Assembly (NCBI GenBank): GCA_012523405.1
Contig: JAAYIN010000025.1
Location: forward strand, 1-64,000
Reading direction: 5' to 3'
DNA: 64,000 nt
Source: Clostridiales bacterium
GTDB lineage: Bacteria > Bacillota > Clostridia > Christensenellales > Aristaeellaceae
Numbering within the stretch: the first letter of the stretch is position 1; each line of letters begins with the position of its first letter. The notes under the pieces were generated by a model. That model worked only from the letters and a program-made list of their open reading frames with translations. It ran no database searches and was not told where the DNA came from. The position numbers were made by a program, and so were the translations under genes. Shown one piece after another: positions 5,171 through 33,542 of this stretch.

Positions 5171-5890
5171 ATGCCCGTCGGTGTAATCACTAACAGCGTA
5201 TTAGTACTTCTTGGCGGCTTGCTTGGAAGTGGTTTGAAGCGGTTCATACCTGCGTCGCTGAAGGAATCTCTGCCTAAGGTTTTTGGATTTGTTGCCATCA
5301 GCATGGGGCTGATGAAGGTGATTGTGGCGAGCAGCCTTGTGAGCGTGACAATGTCGATATTGATCGGCACTATTTTGGGTGAGGTACTGGGCATAGATAA
5401 GGTTCTTCGCAGATGGGCGACATGGCTCATTTCAAAAACGAGGAAGAGCGAAGCACCAAAGCACACGCTTGCCAGCGGCGAACCTGTACGCGATGAAGCA
5501 TTGGAACTGCTGATCTTGGCAGCTGTATCGTTTTGCGTTAGCGGGACGGGGATATTCGGCGCTCTTGAGGAAGGGTTTAGCGGAGATAGCAGTGTGCTGC
5601 TGTCAAAGTCAGGACTTGATTTCTTTACGGCCGTCCTCTTTGCGTCGGTTGCAGGTCTGAGCATTTCATTTCTATCTTTGCCGCAGCTTGTTATCATGCT
5701 GATTATGTTCTCCTTGGGTGGATGGATTGCACCCTTTATGACACCTGAAATGAAGAACAACTTCCTTTCTGTTGGCGGTGCAATCACATTGATGAACGGT
5801 TGCACAATGGCAAAAATGAGTGATATCAAAGCGATTAATGCGGTTCCATCCCTTACGCTGGTTTTGGTTTTCTCGCTCTTCATCAAATAA
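5171..5890 (+). CDS. DUF554 family integral membrane protein
   Basis: The 239-residue protein is almost entirely hydrophobic. It opens with a glycine-rich helix (GVITNSVLVLLGGLLGSGL) and has about six to seven predicted membrane segments separated by short charged loops, including a loop near residues 80-105. This matches the DUF554 (YdfK-like) family, putative membrane transport proteins without a settled substrate. The start follows GAAGGTGGGGGA. It stands alone, closed by a terminator shared with the convergent deacetylase gene. Function unknown beyond membrane location. Confidence 0.8.
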   Translation: MPVGVITNSVLVLLGGLLGSGLKRFIPASLKESLPKVFGFVAISMGLMKVIVASSLVSVTMSILIGTILGEVLGIDKVLRRWATWLISKTRKSEAPKHTLASGEPVRDEALELLILAAVSFCVSGTGIFGALEEGFSGDSSVLLSKSGLDFFTAVLFASVAGLSISFLSLPQLVIMLIMFSLGGWIAPFMTPEMKNNFLSVGGAITLMNGCTMAKMSDIKAINAVPSLTLVLVFSLFIK

Positions 5891-18160: not shown

Positions 18161-18189
18161 TTGCATGTTTGTTTGCATTGCATTATAAT
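18161..18189 (+). promoter_or_regulatory. Promoter of the ssnA purine operon
   Basis: TTGCAT (18161-18166), 17 bases, TATAAT (18184-18189), giving a start near 18196 and a leader of about 310 bases. A second possible promoter, TTGACA at 17886-17891 with TATTGT after 18 bases, lies upstream and is less convincing. Confidence 0.65.
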
Positions 18190-18245
18190 AATATTGCCGA
18201 TATAAAGTAAGCGTAAATATTTACATATGTTCTTGTTTGATTTTT

Positions 18246-18338
18246 AACATTCGACTGTAACGAAGTGCTCTGCGCACGGGTTGATGAGACAGTAGGTCAT
18301 TCTTACTATTGAATTCTTTTGCAAAGGGTGTTTTTTTT
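18246..18338 (+). ncRNA. Leader RNA element, copy 1 (tandem, U-run ended)
   Basis: Outer helix 18246-18252 with 18326-18332 plus 18256-18260 with 18319-18323; second helix GAAG (18262-18265) with CTTT (18316-18319), competing for one base; hairpin GTGC/GCAC (18265-18268 / 18274-18277); then GGG and a weaker arm (18281-18285 with 18308-18312, 18291-18294 with 18304-18307). A run of eight T residues (18331-18338) ends it. Pairing includes G-U pairs, so it is weaker than copy 2. The apical segment AGTGCT-NN-GCGCACGGG is shared with copy 2. Confidence 0.5.
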
Positions 18339-18364
18339 GTAACCTATTTTATCGAAGTAAAATG

Positions 18365-18456
18365 ACGGCTGCAACGGAGTGCTAAGCGCACGGGCTGTAG
18401 AATTGTACGTGATGGTCAGTTCTACAGACGCTCTCCGTAGATGCAGCCGTTTTTTT
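18365..18456 (+). ncRNA. Leader RNA element, copy 2, ending as an intrinsic terminator
   Basis: Outer helix ACGGCTGCA (18365-18373) with TGCAGCCGT (18442-18450), then seven T residues; second helix GGAG (18376-18379) with CTCC (18433-18436); hairpin GTGC/GCAC (18379-18382 / 18388-18391); GGG; and an 8-bp arm CTGTAGAA (18395-18402) with TTCTACAG (18420-18427). It ends 50 bases before ssnA. The layout repeats that of copy 1 while most stem sequences differ, which suggests a conserved fold rather than a simple sequence repeat. Confidence 0.6.
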
Positions 18457-18506: not shown

Positions 18507-19844
18507 ATGTATCTATTAGGAAATGGACGACTCGTTACCCGCGATAGCAGCAGCCCCTTTCTGGAAAATGGTTGCGTGGCAATTGAAGGCAATCTGATAG
18601 CGGCTGTTGGCAGCACTGAGGCTTTGAAGGCACAATATCCCGATGCTGAGTTCAAGGATGCAAAGGGCGGGGTAATTATGCCGGGCTTCATCAATGCCCA
18701 CAATCACATTTACTCTGCTTTTGCTCGTGGCTTAAGCATCAAGGGCAACAACGCCACCAACTTCCTAGAGGTGCTGGATCAGCAGTGGTGGACGATTGAC
18801 CGCAATCTGCTTCTCAAGGATACCAAGGCAAGTGCTGATGCAACATACCTTAACTGCATCGAAAACGGCGTCACCACGGTATTTGATCATCATGCCAGCT
18901 ACGGCGCTGTAGAGGGAAGCCTCTTTGCAATCGCTGATAGCGCAAAGGAATTCGGCGTTCGTACCAACCTTTGCTACGAGATCAGCGACCGAGACGGTCA
19001 GGACAAGATGAAGGAAGCCGTTAAGGAAAATGTCGACTTCATCAATTTTGCCCAGAAAGACGAAACCGATATGGTCAAGGGCATGATGGGTATGCACGCT
19101 CCCTTCACCCTGTCCAACGAAACCCTCGAGTTTTGCATGAAGGAAAAACCCGAAGGTGCAGGCATTCACATCCACGTGGCAGAGGGTATCGATGACCTGT
19201 ATGACAGCCTAGCAAAGTATAACAAACGTCTGATGTATCGCTTATATGATATGGACGTTCTGGGTGATAAGACAATCTGCGGTCATTGCATCTACATCAA
19301 TGAAGCAGAAATGGATTTGGTCAAGCACACCAATACGATGATCGTGCATAACCCCGAAAGCAACATGGGCAATGCGGTTGGGTGCCCTCCGGTTCTGAAG
19401 ATATTCGAAAAGGGAATCCTCATCGGTCTTGGCACAGATGGATACACGAACGACATGCTCGAGAGCTATAAGGTAGCAAATATCCTGCATAAGCACAATG
19501 CCTGCAAACCCAACGTTGCTTGGGGCGAGATTCCTACCATGCTCTTTGAAAACAACCGCGAGATGGCTGGACGCTTCTATCAACAGCCCATCGGCATCCT
19601 CAAGGAAGGCGCATATGCAGACGTGATCGTGATGGATTATGATCCGCTAACCCCCATGACCGCAGATAATATCAACAGCCATCTGCTCTTTGGCTGCACA
19701 GGCAGCAATGTGGTGACCACTATCATTAACGGTACGGTGAAGATGGAAAACCGCGAGATGGTTGGCATTGACAAGAAGGCAGTACTCGCTCATTGCCGCG
19801 AGGAAGCAAGTGACCTATGGACGCGTATCAACGCGGGCAGATAA
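18507..19844 (+). CDS. ssnA: Putative aminohydrolase SsnA
   Basis: The protein is 445 residues, with AAAGGAG 9 bases before the ATG. It is an amidohydrolase-superfamily deaminase: the metal-binding HxH in GFINAHNHI (about residues 64-69), a GIHIHVAEG strand (about 217-225), GHCIYI (about 256) and a late GTDG Asp (about 312). SsnA proteins are related to guanine deaminase and chlorohydrolases and occur in selenium- and molybdenum-linked purine gene clusters; the exact reaction is not settled. It heads the long plus-strand operon behind the structured leader and is 120 bases before ygfK. Confidence 0.9.
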   Translation: MYLLGNGRLVTRDSSSPFLENGCVAIEGNLIAAVGSTEALKAQYPDAEFKDAKGGVIMPGFINAHNHIYSAFARGLSIKGNNATNFLEVLDQQWWTIDRNLLLKDTKASADATYLNCIENGVTTVFDHHASYGAVEGSLFAIADSAKEFGVRTNLCYEISDRDGQDKMKEAVKENVDFINFAQKDETDMVKGMMGMHAPFTLSNETLEFCMKEKPEGAGIHIHVAEGIDDLYDSLAKYNKRLMYRLYDMDVLGDKTICGHCIYINEAEMDLVKHTNTMIVHNPESNMGNAVGCPPVLKIFEKGILIGLGTDGYTNDMLESYKVANILHKHNACKPNVAWGEIPTMLFENNREMAGRFYQQPIGILKEGAYADVIVMDYDPLTPMTADNINSHLLFGCTGSNVVTTIINGTVKMENREMVGIDKKAVLAHCREEASDLWTRINAGR

Positions 19845-19964: not shown

Positions 19965-22937
19965 ATGAGTGACATCATGCATCCTATTCCCTTTGGTACA
20001 CTAATGAATTGGGTTTTGAAGGAATATAAGACCCAAGGAACGATCTTTGGCGTAACAGAGCTTTACAAGCACATCAATGGCAAATCTCTACCGATCTTCA
20101 CCGAGCAGATCGAAACCCCCTTTGGCCCTGCAGCAGGCCCTCACACGCAGCTTGCACAGAACCTTATCGCGGCCTACGTTGGCGGCAGCCGTTTCTTTGA
20201 AGTCAAGACCGTACAGATCATTGACGGTGAGGACCTTCCTGTATCCAAGCCCTGCATCTTGGCAGAGGACGAGGGCTACAACGTAGAGTGGAGCACCGAG
20301 CTTCGCGTACCAGAAGCGTTTGACGAGTACGTGAAGGCATGGTTCGCGATCAAGATGCTATCCAAGCAGTTTGGCTTTGGTTCGCCCGATGGTTTTGTAT
20401 TCAACATGAGTGTTGGCTACGACCTCGCGGGCATCAAGTCCGAAAAGGTGAACAGCTATATCGATGGCATGATGGATGCAGCGGATTCTCCCGTGTGGGC
20501 AGAATGCACCGCATGGGCAAAGGAAAATCTTGCGGCGTTTGATCAACTCGATGCTGCCTATATCGATCAGATCAATCCACATGTATGTACTTCCATCACA
20601 TTGTCCACATTGCACGGCTGCCCTCCTGATGAGATCGAGCGCATTTCAACCTACCTCATCACCGAGAAGAAGTTAAACACCTACATCAAGTGCAATCCCA
20701 CCCTTCTTGGCTACGAATTCGCGCGCAAGACCATGGACGAGATGGGCTATGACTACCTTGTATTTGACGATCATCACTTCAATGCTGACCTGCAGTTTGT
20801 GGATGCAATCCCCATGTTCAAGCGTTTGATCGCTCTTTGTGCGGAGACTGGCGTGGAGTTTGGCCTCAAGCTCACTAACACCTTCCCCGTAACCATCGCA
20901 GCTGGCGAACTGCCAGGGGGGGAAATGTACATGAGCGGCAAGAGCCTCTATCCGCTGTCCATCAATCTGGCAGACCGCATTGAGAAGGAATTTGACGGCA
21001 AACTCCGCGTTTCTTATTCGGGCGGTGCAGATCAGTTCAATATCGGCGATATTTACGACTGCGGCATTTGGCCGATCACCATGGCAACCACGCTCCTAAA
21101 GCCGGGTGGATACAACCGCTTGCGCCCCATTGCTGATATCCTTGTGAACATGGATTACAGCGCATTTGAGCAGGTTGATCAGGCAAAGCTTGGCGCACTT
21201 GCGAAGAAGGCAATCGTTGATGTTCATCACGTTAAGCCCATCAAGGCATTGCCCAGCCGCAAAATGAACAAGGATGTGCCGCTGGTGGATTGCTTTATCG
21301 CTCCCTGCTCCAATCAATGCCCCATCCATCAGGACATTCCCGAGTATATCCGCTTGGTGGGTGAAGGCAAGTTTGATGAAGCGCTGCAGGTGATTTGCGA
21401 AAAGAATCCATTGCCCTTTATCACAGGCACGATTTGCAGCCACACCTGTACCTCCAAGTGCACCCGTAATTTCTATGATGAATCCGTTCAGATCCGTTGT
21501 GCAAAATTGCAAGCGGCAGAAGGCGGCTTCGATGCTTTTGTGAAGACACTTGAAGCAGGCTCCAATAACGGCAAGAACGTTGCTGTCATCGGCGGCGGCC
21601 CTGGCGGCATGGCAGCGGCTTACTTCCTGGCAAAGGGCGGCTCGAAGGTCACGATCTTTGAAAAGCGCAATGCACTTGGCGGCATCGTCAAGCACGTGAT
21701 CCCTGCATTCCGCATCAGCGATGTAGCGATTGCAAAGGATGCATCATTGCTCGAAAAGCTCGGCGTTGAAGTGAAGCTCAATACCACAGTGGAGAGCGCA
21801 CGCGACCTCCTGTCACAGGGCTATACCCACGTGATCGTTGCAAACGGCGCATGGGAGCATGGTTCTTTGAGGCTGGAAGGCGACAAGGCACTCAACGTCA
21901 TTGAGTTCCTAGAGAAGCAAAAGAACCAGCCTGAGACGCTGAGCCTTGGCACAGACGTTGTGGTCATCGGCGGCGGCAACACCGCAATGGACGCAGCCCG
22001 CGCAGCCAAGAAGGCTGACGGCGTGAAGAATGTACGTCTGGTCTATCGCCGCACGAAGCATTACATGCCCGCGGATGCAGAAGAGCTTGAACTGGCTATC
22101 GAAGATGGCGTTGAGTTCTGCGAGTTGCTCGCACCTGTATCCTTCAAGGACTGCAAGCTCACCTGCACAGTTATGGAGCTTGGCGCACCTGATGCATCAG
22201 GACGCCGCAGCCCGCAGGCAACCGACAAATCCGTGGAAGTTCCCGCAACAACCGTGATCTCCGCAATTGGCGAGAAGGTTGATACTGCATATTTCAGGGC
22301 GAACGGCGTTGAGGTGAATGAACGCGGAAACGCAGTTACGGACAGCACGTGCAGCTCCAATGGCATCTTTGTGATTGGCGATGCAAAGCGCGGTCCTGCC
22401 ACGGTAGTTGAAGCAATTGCAGACGCAACCGCAGCAGCGATGAGCATCCTTGATGAAAAACTATCGGATTTCCCGCTCCAGCAGGATGCCGAGGTACTCA
22501 AGGCAAAGCGCGCAGACCTCGTTACTTCTGAGTGCGTTACGTCTGAAAATGATCGCTGCCTAGGCTGCTCGGTGGTTTGCGAGAATTGCGTTGATGTTTG
22601 CCCCAACCGTGCAAACATCGCAGTCAGGGTTGTTGGCATGGCAAAGGAGCAGGTCGTACACGTTGATAAGATGTGCAACGAATGCGGTAACTGCACTGTG
22701 TTCTGCCCCTATATCAGCAATCCGTACAAGGATAAGTTCACTTTGTTTGCATCACCCGCTGACATGAAGGAATCGACCAATGCAGGCTTCTGCGTACTTG
22801 ACAGCGAGGCTGGCAAGGTCAAGGTTCGCATCGGCGATGATGAATATGAATCCGTACTCAATGATGATCAGCGCACGATCGCACCTCTGAAGGCGATTAT
22901 GCAAACGGTTATTTCTGATTACTCCTACTGCCTATAA
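19965..22937 (+). CDS. ygfK: YgfK, putative selenate reductase-like iron-sulphur flavoprotein
   Basis: The protein is 990 residues. The first 420 residues resemble a dihydroorotate/dihydropyrimidine dehydrogenase-type FMN barrel. A GltD-like part follows: cysteines in CSNQCPIHQDIP (about 448), an FAD site VIGGGPGGMAAAYF (about 540) and a nucleotide site VVIGGGNTAMDAAR (about 667). The C-terminus has ferredoxin-type clusters, CLGCSVVCENCVDVCP (about 865) and CNECGNCTVFCPY (about 904). The build suits transfer of electrons from NAD(P)H to a ring reduction, or to the Mo enzyme encoded downstream. A role in anaerobic urate or purine breakdown is known only for clusters of this composition; here it is inferred. 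Confidence 0.9.
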   Translation: MSDIMHPIPFGTLMNWVLKEYKTQGTIFGVTELYKHINGKSLPIFTEQIETPFGPAAGPHTQLAQNLIAAYVGGSRFFEVKTVQIIDGEDLPVSKPCILAEDEGYNVEWSTELRVPEAFDEYVKAWFAIKMLSKQFGFGSPDGFVFNMSVGYDLAGIKSEKVNSYIDGMMDAADSPVWAECTAWAKENLAAFDQLDAAYIDQINPHVCTSITLSTLHGCPPDEIERISTYLITEKKLNTYIKCNPTLLGYEFARKTMDEMGYDYLVFDDHHFNADLQFVDAIPMFKRLIALCAETGVEFGLKLTNTFPVTIAAGELPGGEMYMSGKSLYPLSINLADRIEKEFDGKLRVSYSGGADQFNIGDIYDCGIWPITMATTLLKPGGYNRLRPIADILVNMDYSAFEQVDQAKLGALAKKAIVDVHHVKPIKALPSRKMNKDVPLVDCFIAPCSNQCPIHQDIPEYIRLVGEGKFDEALQVICEKNPLPFITGTICSHTCTSKCTRNFYDESVQIRCAKLQAAEGGFDAFVKTLEAGSNNGKNVAVIGGGPGGMAAAYFLAKGGSKVTIFEKRNALGGIVKHVIPAFRISDVAIAKDASLLEKLGVEVKLNTTVESARDLLSQGYTHVIVANGAWEHGSLRLEGDKALNVIEFLEKQKNQPETLSLGTDVVVIGGGNTAMDAARAAKKADGVKNVRLVYRRTKHYMPADAEELELAIEDGVEFCELLAPVSFKDCKLTCTVMELGAPDASGRRSPQATDKSVEVPATTVISAIGEKVDTAYFRANGVEVNERGNAVTDSTCSSNGIFVIGDAKRGPATVVEAIADATAAAMSILDEKLSDFPLQQDAEVLKAKRADLVTSECVTSENDRCLGCSVVCENCVDVCPNRANIAVRVVGMAKEQVVHVDKMCNECGNCTVFCPYISNPYKDKFTLFASPADMKESTNAGFCVLDSEAGKVKVRIGDDEYESVLNDDQRTIAPLKAIMQTVISDYSYCL

Positions 22938-22955: not shown

Positions 22956-24314
22956 TTGACGATTATCAAAAACGGAACAGTTGTATCGGCAGAAGGGCTT
23001 ACAAAGGCGGACGTAGCGTTTGAAAATGATGTGATCACTTTGGTCGCGCCTGCTATTGAAGCAGGCGCGGGTGACCACGTGATTGACGCAGAAGGGTGCT
23101 TGATATTCCCTGGATTTATCGATGGGCATACACACCTGGATATGGATAGCGGAACAAGCGTAACGGCTGATGATTTCGCTTCCGGCACAACTGCCGCCGT
23201 CTGCGGAGGAACGACAACGATCGTGGATTTCGCAACGCAGGATAAAGGAAATACCCTCATGCATGCGCTGGAATCAGGGCATAAAAAGGCAGACGGAAAA
23301 AGTGCAGCAAACTATGCGTTCCATATGGCGATCACCGACTGGAACGACGAGACCAAAGCAGAGCTTCCATTGATGAAGGAAGCTGGTGTAACATCGTTTA
23401 AAGCGTACTACGCATATGATGCGCTGCGCGTTGACGATGGCGAGATGCTGCAAATCCTGCGTGCGCTCAAGCCGCTTGGCGGCGTGCTCGGGGTACACTG
23501 CGAAAACGGAACGTTGGTCAATGCACTGCAAGCGGAGCTCAAAGCGGCGGGGAAACTAAGCCCTGCGGCGCATCCCGCATCAAGGCCGCCTGTGGTGGAA
23601 GCAGAAGCCATTAGAAGGCTTTGCGCAGTCGCCAAGCTTGCGGATATGCCGGTGCATATCGTGCATCTATCCAGCGAGGAAGGACTGAGCGAAGTTCGCC
23701 GCGCAAGGCAGGACGGTCAAAAGATTTGGGCGGAAACCTGCCCCCAGTATCTGCTGCTGGATGATAGCCGATACGAGCTTGAGGGCTTTGAAGGTGCTAA
23801 GTACGTGATTAGTCCGCCGCTGAGGTCTAAAATGGATCAGTTGGCACTCCGTAAAGCCGTGATCAACGATGAGATCGACACGATCTCCACCGATCATTGC
23901 AGCTATAACTTCGAAGGTCAAAAGACAATGGGAATCAATGATTTTACAAAAATCCCCAATGGTGCACCGGGGATTGAGCACCGTCCGGTGTTGTTTTATA
24001 CAAGTTTTGTAGCGTCAGGCGAACAAACCCCTAGCGATATGTGCCGCCTGCTTAGCGAAAATCCATCCAAACTGTTTGGCATGTGGCCGCGTAAAGGTCA
24101 GATCGCTGTGGGGGCAGATGCGGATATCACAATTTGGGATCCCAGTACTAAGGGTGTCATTACCGCTGCCGCGCAGCATCAAGCAGTTGACTACACGCCT
24201 TTTGAGGGCTTTGAGACAGTTGGCTGTGCACGGTATGTATTTGTAAATGGATTACTGACAGCAACTGACGGCATGCCCACAGAGGTCATGGCGGGACAGT
24301 ATGTAAGACGGTGA
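22956..24314 (+). CDS. hydA: Dihydropyrimidinase/hydantoinase-family cyclic amidohydrolase
   Basis: The protein is 452 residues. The start is a TTG 8 bases after AGGAGG; no ATG is better placed. The binuclear metal site is visible: HTHLD (about residues 50-54), the carboxylated lysine in TSFKAYYAY (about 149), later histidines in GVHCEN and VHIVHLSSEE, and the Asp in STDHCSYN (about 310). The family opens cyclic amide rings such as dihydropyrimidines and hydantoins. In this setting it probably hydrolyses a ring formed during purine breakdown. The next gene begins 12 bases after its stop. Confidence 0.9.
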   Translation: MTIIKNGTVVSAEGLTKADVAFENDVITLVAPAIEAGAGDHVIDAEGCLIFPGFIDGHTHLDMDSGTSVTADDFASGTTAAVCGGTTTIVDFATQDKGNTLMHALESGHKKADGKSAANYAFHMAITDWNDETKAELPLMKEAGVTSFKAYYAYDALRVDDGEMLQILRALKPLGGVLGVHCENGTLVNALQAELKAAGKLSPAAHPASRPPVVEAEAIRRLCAVAKLADMPVHIVHLSSEEGLSEVRRARQDGQKIWAETCPQYLLLDDSRYELEGFEGAKYVISPPLRSKMDQLALRKAVINDEIDTISTDHCSYNFEGQKTMGINDFTKIPNGAPGIEHRPVLFYTSFVASGEQTPSDMCRLLSENPSKLFGMWPRKGQIAVGADADITIWDPSTKGVITAAAQHQAVDYTPFEGFETVGCARYVFVNGLLTATDGMPTEVMAGQYVRR

Positions 24315-24325
24315 AGGAGGCTGGC

Positions 24326-26899
24326 ATGTACACATTGTATGTGAACGGTATGGCGCATCATACTGAAAAGAACAGCAATCTGCTGGAATTTTTGAGGGAA
24401 GATCTTGGACTGACAAGTGTAAAGAACGGCTGCGGCGAAGGCGCTTGCGGCACATGTACGGTACTAGTAGACGGCAAGAAGGTGAAGGCATGCATCTTTA
24501 GGCTTGCCAAGCTTGACGGAAAGCATATCACCACGGTGGAAGGCCTGAGCGAACGCGAGCGTGAGGTATATGTCTATGCCTTTGGTCAAACGGGCGCGGT
24601 TCAATGCGGCTTTTGCATCCCGGGCATGGTGATTTCAGCCAAAGCATTGCTTGATGAAAGCAACGATCCTAGTGCTGAGGATGTCAAAAAAGCCATCCGT
24701 GGCAATATTTGCCGCTGCACGGGATATATCAAGATTGAAGAAGCGATTTTATTGGCAGCGAAGATGTTTAGAGAGAATCTTCCCGTGCCGACTGATAATT
24801 CGGACGCACGCATTGGGCATCTGTTCCCGCGTGTTGACGTTGCAGAGAAGGTGCTTGGTACAGGGCTGTATGTCGATGACATCACCGTTGCGGGGATGCT
24901 CTATGCAAAGGCACTGCGTTCCAAGTTCCCAAGGGCCCGCGTGAACAAAATCGATCTGACGCGCGCGCTCGCGCATCCTGATACTGCGCGAATCCTAACA
25001 GCCAAGGATGTACCCTTCAATAAGACGGGTCACATCATACAGGACTGGGATGTCATGATCGAAGAAGGTCAATGCACGCGCTATATTGGCGATGCGATTG
25101 TGCTTGTTGCATCCAAGAGAAAAGAGACGCTTGATGAGATTCTCGCACTTGTGGATGTCGACTATACAGAGCTTGAGCCGATGACAGATCCGTTGGTAGC
25201 GATGAAGGAGGACGCGCCGCTCATTCACGAGAAGGGCAATGTCCTAAAGACAGAGGTTCTTAAGCGCGGCGATGTGGATAAGGCATTTGCGGAGGCAGCG
25301 CATATCGTTACCCACCACTATTCAACGCCGATGACCGATCATGCATTCATGGAGCCCGAATGCGCAATCGGCATGCCTGAGGGCGAGGATGGACTGCTGC
25401 TTTACACGGCAAGTCAGTCAGTCTATGACGAGCAGAAGGAAATCGCTCGCATGCTCCAGCTTCCGCCAGAAAAAGTTCGTTGCCAGACCAAGCTTGTCGG
25501 AGGTGGATTTGGCGGCAAGGAAGACATGAGCGTTCAGCATCATGCGGCGCTGATGGCATGGGCAACAAAGATGCCCGTAAAGGTTAAGTTCACGCGTCAG
25601 GAGAGTCTAAATATCCACACCAAGCGGCATGCGATGGAAATGGATGTTTCGACGGCCTGCGATAAGGACGGAAAACTCCTTGGTATGCGTGCTACATTGA
25701 TTTCTGACTGCGGCGCGTATGCATCGCTTGGCGGACCTGTGCTCCAGCGTGCATGCACTCATGCAGCAGGTCCCTATAACTTCCAAAACATCGATATTAC
25801 AGGTATTTGCGTCTATACCAACAACGTACCGGGCGGCGCATTCAGAGGATTTGGTGTCACGCAGAGCTGCTTTGCGGCGGAGGTCAACCTTGATCTTCTC
25901 GCTGAGAAGGTCGGCATTTCCCCTTGGGATATCCGTTACCTCAATGCCATCCGTCCGGGTCAGGAACTGCCCAACGGCCAGATCGCTTCGCCTGATACAG
26001 GCTATGCGGAATGCCTTGAAGCGGTCAAGGATGTCTTTGAAGCCAATCCCTATGCTGGTCTTGCAGGCTGCATGAAAAACAGCGGTACAGGTGTTGGTTT
26101 GCCTGATATCGGTCGCTGCAAACTCGTGGTTGAAAACGGTATGATCCGCACCCGCACAAGCGCAGCTTGCATGGGTCAAGGCGTGGCAACGGTGTGCACC
26201 CAGATCATCAGCGAGGTGACGGGCATTCCTGCATCGCAGATTTTCCACGAGCGTCCCGATACGGCGATCACGCCAAACTCGGGTACATCCACTGCATCCA
26301 GGCAGACGGTCTTTTGCGGTCAGGCAACCAGAGTCGCATCCGATAAGCTGGAAGAAGCACTTGAGAATGTTGACCGTGATCTGACAAAGCTGGAAGGGCA
26401 AAACTTCTACGGCGAGTATTCAGGCATTACAGACCCCATGGGCTCTGATAAACCCAACCCTGTCAGTCACGTTGCCTATGGCTATGCGGCGCAGGTCGTG
26501 ATCATGGACGAAACAAAGAAGGTTACGCGCGTAATTGCTGCACATGACGTTGGTCGTGTCGTGAATCCTCAGGCATGTGCTGGTCAGATCGAAGGCGGCG
26601 TGTGCATGGGTCTTGGCTATGGCATTACAGAGGACTTTAAGATGGAAAACGGGTATGTGAAGTCGAAATACGGAACGCTCGGACTCCTTCGTTCGACTGA
26701 AATGCCGCCCGTTGATGTGATCTTCATCGAGAAGGGCACTCGAGATCAAAACACATTTGGCGCAAAGGGCGTTGGCGAAATTTCAGCCATTCCCGCAGCT
26801 CCGGCTGCTGCTAATGCTGCAAGGCGCGTAGATGGTGTGCTGCGTACCAGCCTTCCTATCACCAATACCTTCTACAAGAAGGAGGCAAAAAAGGCATGA
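24326..26899 (+). CDS. xdhD: XdhD-type molybdenum hydroxylase (fused 2Fe-2S and Mo subunits)
   Basis: The protein is 857 residues from the ATG behind GGAGG; a GTG five codons upstream overlaps the ribosome site. The N-terminus binds two 2Fe-2S clusters: NGCGEGACGTC (about 36-47) and CGFC with NICRCTGY (about 95-131). The molybdopterin part spans about 160-850, with GGGFGGKEDM (about 391), GAFRGFGVTQ (about 504) and the terminal Glu loop GAKGVGE (about 812). There is no FAD domain and no separate FAD subunit in the operon, so electrons must leave by another partner; YgfK is an obvious candidate. It is related to the E. coli xdhD product. It is not a Sec protein: no in-frame TGA was needed. Confidence 0.9.
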   Translation: MYTLYVNGMAHHTEKNSNLLEFLREDLGLTSVKNGCGEGACGTCTVLVDGKKVKACIFRLAKLDGKHITTVEGLSEREREVYVYAFGQTGAVQCGFCIPGMVISAKALLDESNDPSAEDVKKAIRGNICRCTGYIKIEEAILLAAKMFRENLPVPTDNSDARIGHLFPRVDVAEKVLGTGLYVDDITVAGMLYAKALRSKFPRARVNKIDLTRALAHPDTARILTAKDVPFNKTGHIIQDWDVMIEEGQCTRYIGDAIVLVASKRKETLDEILALVDVDYTELEPMTDPLVAMKEDAPLIHEKGNVLKTEVLKRGDVDKAFAEAAHIVTHHYSTPMTDHAFMEPECAIGMPEGEDGLLLYTASQSVYDEQKEIARMLQLPPEKVRCQTKLVGGGFGGKEDMSVQHHAALMAWATKMPVKVKFTRQESLNIHTKRHAMEMDVSTACDKDGKLLGMRATLISDCGAYASLGGPVLQRACTHAAGPYNFQNIDITGICVYTNNVPGGAFRGFGVTQSCFAAEVNLDLLAEKVGISPWDIRYLNAIRPGQELPNGQIASPDTGYAECLEAVKDVFEANPYAGLAGCMKNSGTGVGLPDIGRCKLVVENGMIRTRTSAACMGQGVATVCTQIISEVTGIPASQIFHERPDTAITPNSGTSTASRQTVFCGQATRVASDKLEEALENVDRDLTKLEGQNFYGEYSGITDPMGSDKPNPVSHVAYGYAAQVVIMDETKKVTRVIAAHDVGRVVNPQACAGQIEGGVCMGLGYGITEDFKMENGYVKSKYGTLGLLRSTEMPPVDVIFIEKGTRDQNTFGAKGVGEISAIPAAPAAANAARRVDGVLRTSLPITNTFYKKEAKKA

Positions 26900-28197
26900 G
26901 TACAGTCAATACAAAGGATGCCCTATTTGAGCGCACAGGTAAACCGCAAATCAGCAAGGCGATCCCCATGGCACTCCAGCACGTTGTCGCTATGGTCGTT
27001 GGCTGCATTACCATGCCGATGATCATTGCCAGCACCGCAGGCGTTTCGCCCGCAGATCAGATCATCATGGTGCAGGCGAGCCTCTTTGTCGCAGCACTGG
27101 CCACTTTGCTTCATGCCTTTGGCGTGAAGGGCGTATTCAGCAGCGGACTTCCGGTCATGGTCGGCAGCGGCTTTGCGTTCCTGCCCACGCTTCGCATGGT
27201 GGTTGAGCAGCATGGTATTAATGGTATGGTCGGCGCACAGATCGCAGGTGCATGCTTTGGTATTTTGGTCGGCCTTGGATTTAAGAAAATCCGTAAGCTC
27301 TTTCCTCCAATCGTAACGGCTAGTGTCGTTTTGACCATTGGTATTTCGCTGTATGATACGGCGGTTGGCTATATGGCAGGGGGAACGGGCAGCGTCAAGA
27401 ACTGGGCAATTGCCTTCATTACCTTGGCAACTGTTATCGTTTGCGGACAATTCTGCAAGGGTATGGTCAAGGCGAGCGCAACGCTGATCGGTATGGTCGT
27501 TGGCTATATCGCAGCAGCACTCATGGGCGGTATCGAGTTTGGCGCAGTTGGTGCAGCAAGCTGGGTACAGCTTCCCACACCTTTTCACTTCACCCCTGTG
27601 TTCTCACTCAATGCGATTATCAGCCTTGGCATTGTGTTCATGGTCAATGCGGTGCAGGATATCGGGCAATTTGAAGCCACGGCAAACGGCTCATACGAGC
27701 GCGCAGCGACAGATCAAGAAATCACAGGCGGCGTCATTGGCAATAATATTGCAAGCCTGATCGGCGGCATCCTCGGAGGCGTACCTGTAGCAACGGCTGG
27801 GCAGAACGTTGGGATCGTGGTTACCACCAAGGTGATCAACCGCATCGTATTTGGCATTGCGGGCGCAGTCGTGATGATTGCAGCCCTTGTGCCCAAACTC
27901 TCTGCCATCCTTATCACCATTCCTCAGCCCGTGCTTGGCGGCGCAACGATCACTGTATTTGGCTCCATTGCCATGACGGGTGTTCGCATGCTGTCCCGCG
28001 ACGGACTAAGCCCCCGCAGCACATTTATCGCAGGTCTTAGCGTGGCAATGGCTGTGGGCATTCCGCAGGTGTCAGGCGCATTCGCTGGATGCCCCGCATG
28101 GGTCGGGCAGATCTTCGGCGGATCAGAGGTCATTATTGTGGCAGTGGTCGCGATTCTCCTCAACCTAATTCTCCCCAAAGATAAGAAGGAGCAATAA
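26896..28197 (+). CDS. NCS2 family purine (xanthine/urate) permease
   Basis: The protein is 433 residues with about 14 hydrophobic segments. It contains the nucleobase-ascorbate transporter signature as GQNVGIVVTTK (about residues 298-308), and the conserved Glu-containing segment QDIGQFEATANG (about 253). The start ATGA overlaps the xdhD stop by 4 bases, so the two are co-translated. The signature and the operon favour xanthine or uric acid over uracil. It probably supplies the substrate for the upstream enzymes by proton symport. Confidence 0.9.
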   Translation: MSTVNTKDALFERTGKPQISKAIPMALQHVVAMVVGCITMPMIIASTAGVSPADQIIMVQASLFVAALATLLHAFGVKGVFSSGLPVMVGSGFAFLPTLRMVVEQHGINGMVGAQIAGACFGILVGLGFKKIRKLFPPIVTASVVLTIGISLYDTAVGYMAGGTGSVKNWAIAFITLATVIVCGQFCKGMVKASATLIGMVVGYIAAALMGGIEFGAVGAASWVQLPTPFHFTPVFSLNAIISLGIVFMVNAVQDIGQFEATANGSYERAATDQEITGGVIGNNIASLIGGILGGVPVATAGQNVGIVVTTKVINRIVFGIAGAVVMIAALVPKLSAILITIPQPVLGGATITVFGSIAMTGVRMLSRDGLSPRSTFIAGLSVAMAVGIPQVSGAFAGCPAWVGQIFGGSEVIIVAVVAILLNLILPKDKKEQ

Positions 28198-28199
28198 AA

Positions 28200-29417
28200 A
28201 TGGAAAAATTTCAAATCGTCACATTTCCCCATCAGGAAGTCCCCGCTTGCGATTTAGGCAACTTCGGCGTGGACGAAGCAAAGAAGGTTCACGACTATCA
28301 TGCAAGCTTTGATGTATATACCCAGACTCCTCTGACCCCGCTTGCAGGTCTTGCCAAAGAGCTAGGCGTTGCAGAGGTCCGCGTGAAGGACGAGAGCTAT
28401 CGCTTTGGTCTCAACGCATTCAAGGTGCTTGGCGGAAGCTATGCACTTGGCTGCTATATTGCTAAGAAGCTGGGCAAGGACATTTCCGAAATGCCCGCAT
28501 CACGCATTCTATCCGATGAAATCCGCGCGGAGCTCGGCGATGTGACCTTCGTGACCGCAACCGACGGCAACCACGGTCGCGGCGTTGCATGGACAGCAAA
28601 TCAGCTGGGTCAGCATTCCGTTGTCTATATGCCAAAGGGCTCAGCGCAGGAACGCTTGATGAACATCCGCGCTGAAGGCGCAGACGCTTCGATCGTTGAC
28701 ATGAACTATGATGAGGCGGTACGCCTTGCAAACAGCCAAGCAGAAGCGAACGGCTGGGTCATGGTGCAGGATACCGCATGGGAAGGCTATACTGACATTC
28801 CGCTGTGGATCATGCAGGGCTATATGACGATGGGCTACGAAATCGTGAAGCAGCTGGAAGCGGATAACGCAGAAAAACCCACTCACGTATTCCTGCAAGC
28901 GGGCGTTGGCAGCATGGCGAGCGCCATGGCGGCGTTCCTATCCTCCTACTACGGCAAGGATCGCCCGATCATCACCGTGATTGAGCCAGAAAAGGCGAAT
29001 TGCCTGTTTAATACCGCGAAGGCGAACGACGGCAAGCTTCATTTCGTCACTGGCGAGATGAACACCATCATGGCGGGTCTTGCTTGCGGCGAGCCCTGCA
29101 CCATCGGCTGGGAAGTGCTGAAGGATTGCGTCGATGCATTCATCAGCTGCCCTGATTATGTGGCGGCTGACGGCATGCGCATCATGGCAGCACCTGTGAA
29201 GGGTGACGAGGCTGTGATATCGGGCGAATCAGGCGCTGCAACCCTTGGCTGCGTAGCCAATATCCTGATGGATAGCGATCTTTCAGAACTCAAGCAGCAG
29301 CTCAAGATTGATGAAAACAGCCGCTTGCTCTTTATCAGCACCGAAGGCGACACCGACAAAAAGAACTACCGTGACGTTGTTTGGGGCGGCAAGTACTCCA
29401 AAAACTGTCAGGGTTAA
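28200..29417 (+). CDS. ygeX: Diaminopropionate ammonia-lyase
   Basis: The protein is 405 residues, the usual length. It is a fold-type II PLP enzyme: the Schiff-base lysine lies in FGLNAFKVLGG (about residue 80), the TDGNHGRGVAW phosphate/substrate loop at about 120-130, and GVGSMASAMAAF (about 240). The enzyme converts 2,3-diaminopropionate to pyruvate and two ammonia. In purine clusters of this kind this is thought to be the carbon- and nitrogen-releasing end step. It follows the permease by 2 bases. Confidence 0.93.
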   Translation: MEKFQIVTFPHQEVPACDLGNFGVDEAKKVHDYHASFDVYTQTPLTPLAGLAKELGVAEVRVKDESYRFGLNAFKVLGGSYALGCYIAKKLGKDISEMPASRILSDEIRAELGDVTFVTATDGNHGRGVAWTANQLGQHSVVYMPKGSAQERLMNIRAEGADASIVDMNYDEAVRLANSQAEANGWVMVQDTAWEGYTDIPLWIMQGYMTMGYEIVKQLEADNAEKPTHVFLQAGVGSMASAMAAFLSSYYGKDRPIITVIEPEKANCLFNTAKANDGKLHFVTGEMNTIMAGLACGEPCTIGWEVLKDCVDAFISCPDYVAADGMRIMAAPVKGDEAVISGESGAATLGCVANILMDSDLSELKQQLKIDENSRLLFISTEGDTDKKNYRDVVWGGKYSKNCQG

Positions 29418-29440
29418 TGATTGAAAGGAGAAGAAACAGC

Positions 29441-30625
29441 ATGCTTAATCAAGAACAAATCAATGAAGTCGTAGAACTTTGTCAGAACCTAATTAAGTCC
29501 TCCAGCTACAGCGGAAATGAGGGGGATGTCGTGAAGAAGCTGACTGCTTATTTTGAAAAGAACGGCTTTGACAGCGTACATGTTGACAAGTATGGCAATA
29601 TCATCGGCTGCATCAAGGGCAATCGCCCAGGCCCCAAAGTCATGTTTGACGGACATATCGACACCGTTCCCGTGCAGGATGCCACCAAATGGGATCATGA
29701 TCCCTTCGGCGCAGAAATCGTTGATGGCAAGATCTACGGTCGCGGCACTTCCGATATGAAGGGCGCAGTGGCAGCCATGGCATGTGCAGCAGTGAACTTC
29801 GCAAAGTCCACCAACCGCGATTTCGCAGGCGAGATCTACGTTGCTGGCGTTGTGCATGAAGAGTGCTTCGAGGGCGTTGCAGCGCGCGAGATCAGCGCCT
29901 ATGTGAAGCCTGACTACGTCATCATTGGCGAAGCAAGTCAGCTCAATATCAAAATCGGCCAGCGCGGCCGCGGCGAAGTGGTTGTGGAAACCATCGGCAA
30001 ACCCTGCCACAGCGCAAACCCCGAAAAGGGCATCAATGCTGTCTACAAAATGGCAAAGGTGATCGAAGCGATTCGCACCCTTAAGCCTACCCATCACCCA
30101 GTCCTTGGCGATGGCATCTTGGAACTGACTGATATTAAGTCCGCTCCCTACCCCGGTGCATCCGTTGTACCGGAATATTGCCGCGCAACCTATGACCGCC
30201 GTCTCCTTGTGAACGAAACCAAGGAAAGCGTTCTTGCACCGATCCAAGCACTTCTGGATCAGCTGATGGCTGAGGATGCAGAGCTAAAGGTGAAGGTCAG
30301 CTACGCAACAGGCACCGAAATGTGCTTCACAGGCAATGAGATCACAGGCGAGCGTTTCTTCCCCGGCTGGCTATATGACGAGAACGATGAGTTCGTGCAG
30401 GATGTATACAAGGAGCTACAGGGCATGGGATATACTCCCTCCATCACCCAGTACAACTTCTGCACCAACGGCAGCCACTACGCGGGTGAAGCGGGTATCA
30501 AGACCTTAGGCCTTGGACCAAGCCGCGAAAACCTCGCACATACCATCAATGAGTACATTGAGATCGATCAACTTGCTAAGGTTTGTGACTGCTACACAGG
30601 CGTCATGAAGGCATTGCTTAAATAA
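29441..30625 (+). CDS. ygeY: YgeY-type M20 family metallohydrolase
   Basis: The protein is 394 residues from the ATG behind AAAGGAG; a longer frame overlaps ygeX and is not used. M20 metal ligands are present: FDGHIDTVP (about 70), GRGTSDMKG (about 103-111) and HEECFEG (about 137). A dimerisation domain occupies about 180-300. M20 enzymes remove acyl or carbamoyl groups or cleave dipeptides; YgeY is consistently found with diaminopropionate ammonia-lyase and may deacylate or decarbamoylate its precursor (inference). Confidence 0.9.
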   Translation: MLNQEQINEVVELCQNLIKSSSYSGNEGDVVKKLTAYFEKNGFDSVHVDKYGNIIGCIKGNRPGPKVMFDGHIDTVPVQDATKWDHDPFGAEIVDGKIYGRGTSDMKGAVAAMACAAVNFAKSTNRDFAGEIYVAGVVHEECFEGVAAREISAYVKPDYVIIGEASQLNIKIGQRGRGEVVVETIGKPCHSANPEKGINAVYKMAKVIEAIRTLKPTHHPVLGDGILELTDIKSAPYPGASVVPEYCRATYDRRLLVNETKESVLAPIQALLDQLMAEDAELKVKVSYATGTEMCFTGNEITGERFFPGWLYDENDEFVQDVYKELQGMGYTPSITQYNFCTNGSHYAGEAGIKTLGLGPSRENLAHTINEYIEIDQLAKVCDCYTGVMKALLK

Positions 30626-30639
30626 TAAGGAGGATGAAC

Positions 30640-32235
30640 ATGTCTGCTATTTTGCTGAAGGGTGGGCGTATTGCTGATGGCACCGGAGCACCGGCATACA
30701 AAGCCGATGTTTTAATCAAGGATCAAAAGATTGCCGCAATAGGGCAAGACCTTTCGGACGCAGACGCGCGCGTCCTTGATGTTAATGGGCTAGTCGTAGC
30801 CCCCGGTTTTATCGATACACATAGCCACTCGGATTTGGATGTCCTGCTGCGTCCGCAGGTTCTGCCCAAGATCATGCAGGGCATCACAACCGAGCTATTG
30901 GGTCAGGATGGCATATCGCTTGCCCCCTTGCCCGTGAAGTACATCACGCCGTGGAGAAAGAACCTCGCAGGGCTTGACGGCGATACAGATGACATTGACT
31001 GGACGTTTGAAACGACCGAAAACTATCTCAAGATGATTGAAAACGCGAAGCCCGGCCTCAACGAGATGTATCTCGTGCCCCACGGCAATATCCGCATGGA
31101 AGCGATGGGCTTGGATAACCGCCAGCCCAACGAAGAAGAAGTCCAGAAAATGCGCGATATCACCCGCCGCGAAATGGAAGCGGGCGCGATGGGTCTATCC
31201 ACAGGGCTGATCTATATCCCCTGTGCATATTCCGAGAGCCAAGAGATCATCGAGATGTGCAAAGTAGTTGCGGAGTATGACGGCGTGTTCGTCATTCACC
31301 AGCGCAGCGAAGCCGATACCATCCTTGACAGCATGCAGGAAGTCATTGATATTGGCCGTAAATCAGGTGTGAAGGTACATTGGAGCCATTTCAAAGTATG
31401 CGGCAAAAAGAACTGGGACAAAGTTGACGCTGTACTTTCTTTGCTCGATGAAGCCAGAAAAGAAGGAATTACGGTAAGTTTTGACCAATACCCCTATGTA
31501 GCGGGCAGCACCATGATGGGTGCGATCCTGCCGCCATGGGTACATGATGGCGGAACAGACAAAGAAGTCGAACGCCTAGCTGATCCAGAGCTTCGCTTGC
31601 GCATGATTCACGATATGGAAAACGGCATTCATGGCTGGGATAATTTCGTGGACTTCGCGGGCTTTGAGAACATCTTTGTCACAAGCGTGAAGACGGAGAA
31701 GAACGCCGATGCCGTTGGGCTTTCCATTGTGGAACTAGCAAAACTTCGCGGCACAGACAACTATAACGCAGCATTTGACCTTCTGATGGAGGAAGAAAAT
31801 GCGGTTGGCATGGTGGATTTCTACGGCACTGAGGATCATGTGAAGCTATTCATCAAGCGTCCTGAAATGAACGTTTGCACCGATGGACTTCTATGCCCCG
31901 GTAAGCCTCATCCGCGTCTATACGGCAGCTTCCCGCGCGTGCTGGGTAAGTACGTGCGCGAGGAAGGGATTCTGTCCCTTGAAGCCGCTGTTGCCAAGAT
32001 GACGGGCAAAGCCGCCGCCGTCCTAAACCTCAAAGACCGCGGGCAGATTAAAGAAGGCTACTATGCCGATATCACGATCTTCAGCAGTGAAGAAATCATT
32101 GACAAAGGCACGTACACCGATCCCATTCAGTACCCCGAGGGCATTGCCTACGTGATCGTTAACGGCGAGGTCGCTGTGGATCATGGCACGCACACGGGCG
32201 CACTTAATGGTAAGGTGCTCTATAACAACAAGTAA
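30640..32235 (+). CDS. N-acyl-D-amino-acid deacylase family amidohydrolase
   Basis: The protein is 531 residues. The ATG at 30640 sits 7 bases after AAGGAGG; the ATG at 30634 touches the ribosome site and is unlikely. The D-aminoacylase subclass is indicated by GFIDTHSHSDLDVL (HxH metal site, about residues 62-70), HQRSEAD (about 223) and VHWSHFK (about 248). Such enzymes deacylate D-amino acids. In this operon a more likely substrate is an N-carbamoyl or N-formyl ring-opening product, but this is inference. Confidence 0.88.
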   Translation: MSAILLKGGRIADGTGAPAYKADVLIKDQKIAAIGQDLSDADARVLDVNGLVVAPGFIDTHSHSDLDVLLRPQVLPKIMQGITTELLGQDGISLAPLPVKYITPWRKNLAGLDGDTDDIDWTFETTENYLKMIENAKPGLNEMYLVPHGNIRMEAMGLDNRQPNEEEVQKMRDITRREMEAGAMGLSTGLIYIPCAYSESQEIIEMCKVVAEYDGVFVIHQRSEADTILDSMQEVIDIGRKSGVKVHWSHFKVCGKKNWDKVDAVLSLLDEARKEGITVSFDQYPYVAGSTMMGAILPPWVHDGGTDKEVERLADPELRLRMIHDMENGIHGWDNFVDFAGFENIFVTSVKTEKNADAVGLSIVELAKLRGTDNYNAAFDLLMEEENAVGMVDFYGTEDHVKLFIKRPEMNVCTDGLLCPGKPHPRLYGSFPRVLGKYVREEGILSLEAAVAKMTGKAAAVLNLKDRGQIKEGYYADITIFSSEEIIDKGTYTDPIQYPEGIAYVIVNGEVAVDHGTHTGALNGKVLYNNK

Positions 32236-32256: not shown

Positions 32257-32634
32257 ATGAACACACCTATTAGCACAGACAAAGCACCCGCAGCGATCGG
32301 TCCTTATTCCCAAGCAGTTCGCGGCGGAGATACCATTTACGTTTCAGGGCAGTTGCCTATCGATCCCGCGACAGGCGCATTTGCTGGCGATGATGTGAAA
32401 GCACAGACCCGCCAATCACTCACTAACATGAAGGCAATTCTTCAAGCAGCAGGCGCTGACATGGATAAGGTGGTCAAGACGACTGTTTTGCTTAAGGACA
32501 TTGCTGATTTTGGCGCAATGAACGAAGTATATGCAGAGTTTTTTGCAGAACCCTATCCGGCAAGAGCAGCCTATCAGGTAGTCGCACTACCCAAGGATGC
32601 ACTTGTTGAAATTGAGTGTGTGGCTGTCGTATAA
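32257..32634 (+). CDS. ridA: RidA family enamine/imine deaminase
   Basis: The protein is 125 residues, full length. Typical segments: [13 protein letters not shown] at the N-terminus, [10 protein letters not shown] (about 28-37) and the substrate arginine in [10 protein letters not shown] (about 104). RidA hydrolyses reactive 2-aminoacrylate to pyruvate and ammonia. That is precisely the intermediate released by diaminopropionate ammonia-lyase, encoded three genes upstream, so its presence here is chemically sensible. AGGAGG precedes the ATG. Confidence 0.93.
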
Positions 32635-32644
32635 GAACAATGCT

Positions 32645-32680
32645 GCGCAGTTGCCGCCATTGGCAACTGCGCTTTTAAAG
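32645..32680 (+). terminator. Internal terminator or attenuator between ridA and sudB
   Basis: GCGCAGTTGCC and GGCAACTGCGC pair perfectly around a short loop, followed by four T residues, inside an otherwise tight operon. With only four Ts it probably reduces rather than stops transcription into sudB and sudA. Confidence 0.7.
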
Positions 32681-32698
32681 CAAGGGAGGAAAATACAG

Positions 32699-33541
32699 GT
32701 GTATAAGATTCTGCAAAAAGAAGTGCTTAACCCCACCGTAACTAAGATGGTGATTGATGCACCACTGGTTGCGCGCAAGGCAGAGCCTGGTCAATTTATC
32801 ATCTATCGTGCGTCACAGGATGGCGAGCGCGTGCCGCTGACCATCGCTGATTTTGACCGCGAGATGGGAACAGTGACCATTATCTTTCAGATCGTTGGCG
32901 GTTCAACAATGGAGCTAAACGCCCTACAAGAAGGCGATAGCTTGGCTGACTTTGTTGGCCCGCTGGGCAAACCCAGCCATCTAGAAGGCCTCAAGAAGGT
33001 TGCGGTTGTGGGCGGCGGCGTAGGCTGCGCGATTGCGTACCCCACAGCAAAGCGCCTTGGCGAACTGGGCGTAGAGGTGCATAGCATCGTTGGCTTTAGA
33101 AACCAAGACCTTGTGATTCTTGAAAAAGAGTTTGAAGCTGCATCCACCAAAGTCGTGAAAATGAGCGATGATGGCAGCTGGGGCGAAAAGGGACTTGTCA
33201 CCAACGCCCTTGAAGCGCTGATTAAAGAGGGCAACGAATACGACGAAGTCATCGCCATTGGCCCGCTGGTCATGATGAAATTCGTCTGCAAGCTCACCGA
33301 GAAATATGGTGTGAAGACCACCGTCTCCATGAACCCCATCATGATTGATGGCACGGGCATGTGCGGCGGCTGCCGCCTGACAGTAGGCGGCAAAACAAAG
33401 TTCGCATGTGTTGATGGTCCTGACTTTGATGGACATCAGGTTGATTTTGACGAAGCGATGCACCGAGGCGGCATGTATCGCGAGTTTGAAAAGCACGCAA
33501 GAGAAGCCGATTGTAATTTGCTAAAGAAGGAGGGCGTCTGA
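32699..33541 (+). CDS. sudB: Ferredoxin-NADP+ reductase-type subunit (SudB/NfnA-like)
   Basis: The protein is 280 residues from a GTG 9 bases after GGGAGG; the longer frame runs back through the terminator and ridA. It has an FAD-binding ferredoxin-reductase barrel (about 1-95), an NAD-binding domain (VAVVGGGVGCAIAYP near 100) and a C-terminal 2Fe-2S motif with cysteines in MCGGC and FACVDGP (about 219-240). With SudA it forms the sulfide dehydrogenase/NADH-dependent ferredoxin:NADP+ oxidoreductase type complex, which can bifurcate electrons. It probably balances redox carriers for purine breakdown. Confidence 0.9.
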   Translation: MYKILQKEVLNPTVTKMVIDAPLVARKAEPGQFIIYRASQDGERVPLTIADFDREMGTVTIIFQIVGGSTMELNALQEGDSLADFVGPLGKPSHLEGLKKVAVVGGGVGCAIAYPTAKRLGELGVEVHSIVGFRNQDLVILEKEFEAASTKVVKMSDDGSWGEKGLVTNALEALIKEGNEYDEVIAIGPLVMMKFVCKLTEKYGVKTTVSMNPIMIDGTGMCGGCRLTVGGKTKFACVDGPDFDGHQVDFDEAMHRGGMYREFEKHAREADCNLLKKEGV

Positions 33542-33542
33542 C

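Follow-up and report, generated by a model that had tools for sequence, protein, structure and literature searches.

The ssnA RNA (Rfam RF03031), a family said to have originated with Weinberg et al. in 2017, is captured by a model of 48 positions in which stem P1 has five pairs, the joining strand eight bases, and hairpin P2 four pairs closed by a loop of five bases. The RAT sites of the BglG/LicT antiterminators are hairpins of about 30 nt with asymmetric loops, which overlap an arm of the terminator. In pseudo-cooperative tandem riboswitches (PMC9481103), a single operon is preceded by two sensors of the same class, each equipped with a terminator; the available text of that source lists xanthine-I and xanthine-II among the classes not found in tandem and makes no mention of ssnA. 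The HMP-PP riboswitch, or thiS motif (PMC6478431, in its available text), places a very small sensor inside the terminator stem and its ligand suppresses termination, and the NMT1 RNA (PMC7373994, in the portion available) is a riboswitch of purine oxidation genes with xanthine and urate as its ligands. No published ligand for the ssnA RNA was found in the literature searched, which was largely open-access, and the riboswitch literature searched does not mention "ssnA" in its available text.

Here we describe a leader in which two ssnA RNAs stand in series before a predicted purine catabolic operon. The window, that is, the whole stretch of DNA analysed, comprises 64,000 nucleotides from a Clostridiales bacterium (GCA_012523405.1, contig JAAYIN010000025.1, positions 1 to 64,000). 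As the probable reading, held with some reserve, we propose that the two copies are inducing (ON) transcription switches that would sense an early purine of the pathway, their outputs being multiplied. With RF03031 the leader shares the sequence core, P1 and P2, and the position before ssnA, both copies scoring over the cut-off; it differs in having two copies, and in the whole switch layout proposed here as against a 48-position model. It resembles the pseudo-cooperative tandems in its two sensors of one class, each followed by a putative terminator, but its ON sign is a proposal, its ligand is putative, and the terminator of copy 1 is weak. It resembles the HMP-PP riboswitch in its small sensor within a terminator stem and in the proposed suppression of termination by ligand, but sequence, genes and ligand are different, and ssnA RNAs elsewhere also adopt other terminator layouts (types B and C below). 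Purine oxidation genes are shared with the NMT1 RNA, as are urate and xanthine as candidate ligands, yet the leader has no match to the NMT1 (xanthine-II) Rfam family up to an E-value of 10. The features of the leader are the following.

18161 to 18189, plus strand: promoter candidate (TTGCAT, 17 nt, TATAAT), from reading the sequence; absent from the consensus scan
18245 to 18292, plus strand: copy 1 ssnA RNA (RF03031); P1 18252-18256/18279-18283, joining loop 18257-18264, P2 18265-18268/18274-18277
18246 to 18338, plus strand: putative copy 1 terminator, weak by energy; base stem 18246-18252/18326-18332, inner helix at 18256-18260/18319-18323, and a U run at 18331-18338
18359 to 18406, plus strand: copy 2 ssnA RNA (RF03031); P1 18366-18370/18393-18397, joining loop 18371-18378, P2 18379-18382/18388-18391
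18365 to 18456, plus strand: copy 2 terminator; 18365-18379/18433-18450, arm 18395-18402/18420-18427, U run 18450-18456

Results

Two members of a known RNA family

The original prediction, made from the letters alone, had described two structured elements sharing the core AGTGCT-NN-GCGCACGGG, and both direct reading of the sequence, which places the core at 18264-18280 in copy 1 and 18378-18394 in copy 2, and comparison with Rfam bear this out. With cmscan on 317 bases, each copy gave a full-length match to RF03031 over the cut-off of 37.3 bits (copy 1, 38.0 bits, E 5.6e-9; copy 2, 44.9 bits, E 2.6e-11). The accompanying remark that the core fits no known family was mistaken: an Rfam search had been proposed as a check, a match to a known family had been named as the outcome that would count against the idea, and such a match was what the search returned. 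All 9 of the 9 pairs in P1 and P2 of the consensus are standard in copy 1 and likewise in copy 2. Because the sensor cores are nearly identical and the stems that differ are mainly those of the terminators, the two copies are two members of one RNA class, and the near-identity of the cores also suggests one putative ligand for both. The remark that the stems differ and still pair holds as far as the pairing goes, but applies mainly to the terminators, the sensor core being nearly unchanged.

The Rfam model found no third match in the window's own genome. Other families in the leader appeared only at a lax threshold (snoR12, E 1.7; RT-7, E 4.6) and were taken as chance, and the purine riboswitch RF00167 has no match in the leader or in the same genome. 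In another genome (G010), a match to this purine riboswitch family (RF00167; 55.7 bits) lies near a contig end at locus L004, 8-105 on the minus strand, some 0.9 kb away from the ssnA RNA, which is on the opposite strand.

Upstream, the promoter had been called good, which overstates it: TATAAT (18184-18189) is perfect, but TTGCAT (18161-18166) agrees with TTGACA at only 3 of 6 positions, which is why the consensus promoter scan of the leader reported no plus-strand site.

A strong and a weak predicted terminator

Copy 2 ends as foreseen, in a perfect 9-bp stem followed by seven Ts. At the base, ACGGCTGCA pairs with TGCAGCCGT (18365-18373 with 18442-18450), the ninth pair using the first T of the U run; above it follow CGGAG/CTCCG, the GTGC/GCAC hairpin and the arm CTGTAGAA/TTCTACAG, and then the Ts (18450-18456). 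The 5' arm of this terminator contains the 5' strand of P1 and the joining loop. Its fold, at -46.1 kcal/mol (z -5.55), was equalled in stability by none of 200 dinucleotide shuffles, and enforcing the sensor reduces the figure to -21.3 kcal/mol; the stem over the sensor was likewise matched by 0 of 200 shuffles. Folding of the sensor and formation of the terminator are thus predicted by the energy model to be mutually exclusive in copy 2.

Copy 1 also has the anticipated shape, a weaker stem with G-U pairs and eight Ts: the base stem AACATTC/GGGTGTT contains two G-U pairs, and the Ts occupy 18331-18338. Its terminator fold is no better than chance (-17.6 kcal/mol, z 0.19, 111 of 200 shuffles as stable), the value falls only to -13.8 kcal/mol with the sensor enforced, and 184 of 300 shuffles were as stable. 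None of the four tandem first copies passes the stem-over-sensor test (35 to 81 of 200 shuffles as good). In the five sequences compared, the counterpart reads AACAGCC/GGCTGTT in the relatives G007, An87 and An194, with 6 of the 7 pairs present in An201; the window's stem keeps all 7 pairs, one of them through a two-sided change from G-C to U-G. It is the relatives alone that speak for copy 1 as a putative terminator, its energy being at the level of shuffled sequence. Of the original prediction, two structured leader elements in series with terminator-like ends stand. A scan for terminator-like sites found none, because its rule demands a loop of 3-8 bases.

Survey of ssnA RNAs and conservation of P1

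Loci were gathered by two routes. Whole-genome scans with the Rfam model, in overlapping sets, gave matches over the cut-off in 4 of 100 relatives, 14 of 396 genomes of the order, 4 of 300 of the window's own family, 27 of 103 of another family (f10), and 1 of 391 of the class, this one being the window's own genome. A core-pattern search of named contigs gave at least 118 loci. A wider core pattern applied to the loci from both routes gave at least 77 hits, 72 of them distinct, in 69 leaders. Among the matches listed, an SsnA coding sequence lies within 1.5 kb of 70 of the 72 distinct hits; the two others are L080, with only about 250 nt of sequence downstream, and L098, which precedes a different gene pair. 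The wider core is present in 39 of the at least 118 pattern loci, 38 of them distinct, since L056 duplicates L003. Of these 39, SsnA accompanies 37; likewise 37, among the matches listed, exceed the Rfam cut-off, the exceptions being L029 and L115.

Two sets of candidates were set aside. Pattern loci lacking the wider core, which include unrelated phyla, number 79 among the matches listed and have SsnA in 0 of 79. Seven weak RF03031 matches (L137-L142 and L159; 23-27 bits, under the cut-off) were attributed to chance, SsnA occurring at 0 of the 7 loci (E 1e-5, both strands).

Across 66 distinct cores, including the second copy of G007 added by hand, 313 of 330 P1 cells hold a pair, counting the matches listed and ignoring kinship; shifting one strand by a base in either direction lowers this to 167 or 156. 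Pairs 9-38 and 10-37 are formed in 66 of 66 cores among the matches listed, with 5 and 3 pair types respectively, the latter being G-C in 61, A-U in 3 and G-U in 2. Among the 32 hits whose loci came from the Rfam-model scans, the P1 pairs are the same as in the full set. The search pattern fixes many core bases, so invariance of the core arises partly by construction. On this comparison, the predicted sensor stem P1 is retained while its pairs vary in type.

Three terminator layouts and the sign of the switch

After correction by hand, 71 hits among the matches listed (L112 left out for its short 5' flank) fall into layout A in 10, B in 28, C in 30 and none in 3. Automatic assignment gave C 33, B 29, A 6 and none 3 of 71, and the reassignments concern the four tandem first copies and L144, listed as B but reading as C. 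In type A, the segment 5' of the U run pairs with the 5' strand of P1 and the joining loop; its members are window copy 2, the Gemmiger second copies, Anaerofilum and L098 of Intestinimonas. In type B, the terminator draws on the 3' strands of P2 and P1, as in GCGCGGGC paired to GCCCGCGC, and the members of this type are family f10 and L005, L009, L093, L103 and L118. In type C, about 40 percent of hits among the matches listed, the terminator is separate from the sensor; many Oscillospiraceae records belong here, including Oscillibacter L014 and Dysosmobacter L033. Sensor strands are thus reused by the terminator in about half of the hits among the matches listed, window copy 2 included.

Once a terminator can form, retention of the sensor carries a median cost of 13.6 kcal/mol, and never less than 6.7, in the 33 A and B hits compared among the matches listed (L135 and L144 left out), and 30 of 34 such hits among the matches listed pass the stem-over-sensor test with at most 10 of 200 shuffles equal (L144 left out, the U run of L135 set by hand), the four that fail being L075, L126, L147 and L156. 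No terminator was found in L029, L094 and L115, where the ssnA-RNA-like core is close to a start codon; these three could be relics or work at the level of translation, and two of them, L029 and L115, score under the Rfam cut-off.

Types A and B draw on opposite halves of the sensor, and both make the folded sensor and the terminator exclusive. Since both, from opposite halves, would block termination when the sensor is folded, we read the switch as inducing; one antitermination logic served by two terminator designs would be new here, on comparative grounds. It is very unlikely, in our judgement, that the same RNA class is instead an OFF switch whose ligand-bound form includes the outer stem P0 of type C leaders and favours termination. 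Type C is where that idea draws its strength: of 29 such leaders among the matches listed, 27 have an antiterminator that overlaps the terminator and 22 a P0 that overlaps the antiterminator, the latter being the usual layout of an OFF riboswitch. P0 was picked automatically, poorly in a few rows such as L012, and only 13 of 27 antiterminators among the matches listed are better than shuffles (at most 10 of 200). Against an OFF sign stand the exclusivity of sensor and terminator in type A and B leaders, the fit of induction to a catabolic operon, and P0 itself, which shares bases 8-10 with P1 and leaves the P1 partners C37 and U38 in place. Type C would be compatible with the ON reading if P0 were the ligand-free form.

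Origin of the tandem pair

Of the 69 leaders among the matches listed, 4 have both a first and a second copy over the Rfam cut-off (the window, G007, and Gemmiger An87 and An194), that is, among these matches, only in the window or its close relatives. Outside the core, the flanks of window copy 1 are 66-71 percent identical to copy 1 of the relatives; identity with copy-2-type elements is 24 to 37 percent, so that copy 1 is one inherited element. The flanks of window copy 2 are 34-39 percent identical to tandem second copies and likewise 34-39 percent to first copies, and the comparison gives copy 2 no closer tie to the second copies of the tandems; identity with Fournierella L051 is 45 percent. 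The second copy of G007 (L003 1630-1677, the same as L056) has its first P2 pair broken (GCGCAAGGG), its terminator-like stem is not followed by a U run, and An201 has a copy-1-type element only. From these comparisons we take the G007 second copy to be a decaying tandem copy, and the tandem pair to be a local elaboration that is partly decaying. At the L051 locus, where cmscan reports one hit only, TTTTTTAACA and GTTGTGCGC upstream of the ssnA RNA (5640-5687) could, as a guess, be the remnant of a first copy.

That only copy 2 switches, copy 1 being a decaying or purely structural remnant, is doubtful but deserves serious weight, since the copy 1 terminator is weak in both shuffle comparisons and copies decay or vanish elsewhere in the group, as in G007 and An201. 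Copy 1, however, retains the conserved sensor bases and eight Ts, its base stem carries the two-sided change, and its flanks have stayed close to those of copy 1 in the relatives; we keep to the reading in which both copies would switch.

The operon and the putative ligand

The genes downstream were treated as one operon from their spacing.

18507 to 19844, plus strand: ssnA, amidohydrolase (TIGR03314, 619.6 bits, cut-off 455.5)
19965 to 22937, plus strand: ygfK, reductase (TIGR03315, 1370.4 bits, cut-off 835.3)
22956 to 24314, plus strand: hyuA-like dihydropyrimidinase/hydantoinase (TIGR02033, 555.2 bits, cut-off 393.25)
24311 to 26899, plus strand: selenium-dependent xanthine dehydrogenase family (TIGR03311, 1348.8 bits, cut-off 830.45)
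26896 to 28197, plus strand: NCS2 purine permease (TIGR00801, 292.5 bits, cut-off 291.8; PF00860)
28200 to 29417, plus strand: diaminopropionate ammonia-lyase, dpaL/ygeX (TIGR03528, 622.4 bits, cut-off 532.25)
29381 to 30625, plus strand: ygeY-type hydrolase (NF009555, 511.9 bits, cut-off 321)
30634 to 32235, plus strand: Amidohydro_3 protein (PF07969, 103.1 bits, cut-off 29.7)
32257 to 32634, plus strand: RidA-type protein (PF01042)
32597 to 34931, plus strand: electron-transfer pair, FAD/NAD-binding protein and GltA-type protein (NF004862 and TIGR01316, over cut-off); the true start of the FAD/NAD-binding protein is probably after 32634

This gene set agrees with the reductive urate pathway reported in 2025, as described in the available text of PMC12507026, the source of the pathway chemistry, where the word "riboswitch" does not occur. 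In the E. coli set described there, XdhD reduces urate to yanthine, YgfK with SsnA reduces and opens yanthine, and the route continues to pyruvate; the UacY of that text is an Amidohydro_3 protein. The dehydrogenase at 24311-26899 may carry out the XdhD step.

No regulator turned up among the operon genes examined, which tells against a protein-dependent antitermination in which an antiterminator protein would sense the purine and bind the 30-nt hairpin, whose joining loop is asymmetric. We regard this as unlikely, although the size, the asymmetric loop and the overlap with a terminator arm do recall the RAT sites of BglG/LicT, and ANTAR proteins are encoded in the window's own genome (on another contig) and in 6 of the 15 carriers of ssnA RNA tested. 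In this chosen part of the carriers, searched for the CAT_RBD and ANTAR families, ANTAR is absent from 9 of 15 and CAT_RBD, the domain expected of a RAT-type system, from all 15, the window's own genome included. We continue with the proposal of direct sensing by the RNA.

An isolate of Intestinimonas sp. (bin_14_LilbubCat) carries two separate ssnA RNAs, both over the Rfam cut-off.

L098, 4571-4618, minus strand: ssnA RNA before an electron-transfer pair
L119, 4667-4714, minus strand: ssnA RNA before ssnA

The gene pair behind L098 scores over the cut-offs of NF004862 and TIGR01316, the families that close the window operon (32597-34931), which suggests that the ssnA RNA follows the genes of the pathway and not ssnA alone; on comparative grounds, this putative second target operon in the same pathway would be new here. 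A carbamate kinase gene lies beside the pair on the opposite strand.

Among 20 fetched stretches (7.4 to 16 kb each, some ending at contig ends), 13, all from f10, have only ssnA, ygfK and the dehydrogenase nearby of the eight window proteins compared, and 2 more have only ssnA and ygfK. This pattern favours an early purine of the pathway as ligand, most likely urate, yanthine (2,8-dioxopurine) or xanthine. A purine had been guessed at the outset, and with a predicted purine catabolic operon downstream it is the most reasonable choice. Quite unlikely, to our mind, is a non-purine signal (molybdenum cofactor, selenium supply or redox state), which the selenium- and molybdenum-type dehydrogenase and the redox proteins of the operon might bring to mind: L098 precedes an electron-transfer pair with no such dehydrogenase in that gene pair, and the G096 and G378 stretches, of 14.7 and 12.2 kb (G378 ending at a contig end), show no dehydrogenase match. 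The early purine is the ligand we retain.

In the window's own genus, SsnA is over its cut-off in 5 of 17 genomes and the ssnA RNA in 3 of 17, so that the RNA appears dispensable for the pathway. L176 (G012) and L177 (G003) are same-genus genomes with SsnA and no ssnA RNA match, and in G012 ssnA comes directly after the apparent end of a carbamate kinase gene, as read by eye. At two other loci the ssnA RNA is preceded on its own strand, at a distance of about 95 to 120 nt, by a 6S RNA gene (L093, 4512-4709, plus strand; L103, 4237-4437, minus strand).

Discussion

In the mechanism we propose, RNA polymerase would meet copy 1 and then copy 2, and in each the small sensor of P1, conserved joining loop and P2 could fold as soon as it is transcribed. 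When ligand holds the sensor, the 5' strand of P1 and the joining loop would be unavailable to the segment before the U run, the terminator would not form, and polymerase would read through; in the absence of ligand, the terminator would capture the sensor bases and transcription would stop. The operon would be read only after both copies had been passed, so that output would be the product of two ON responses, with less leak and a steeper, pseudo-cooperative curve. Binding of a small molecule, the identity of that molecule, the sign of the switch in vivo and termination at copy 1 are what we infer in this scheme.

A broader view, which we offer tentatively as possible but short of probable, is that the ssnA RNA is a natural urate/yanthine riboswitch class that activates the anaerobic reductive urate pathway by antitermination, with three terminator layouts built around one 30-nt sensor, and that it has been doubled to a pseudo-cooperative pair in the lineage of the window. 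If so, the doubling would make the use of urate more switch-like. The ssnA RNA is a known orphan family, and the pathway chemistry set out in 2025 (PMC12507026, in its available text) narrows the candidate ligands to a few purines, whereby the ligand of an orphan RNA becomes testable. If confirmed, the family would provide a small RNA sensor for urate or yanthine, and would show how gut anaerobes choose to consume urate, a question linked to gout.
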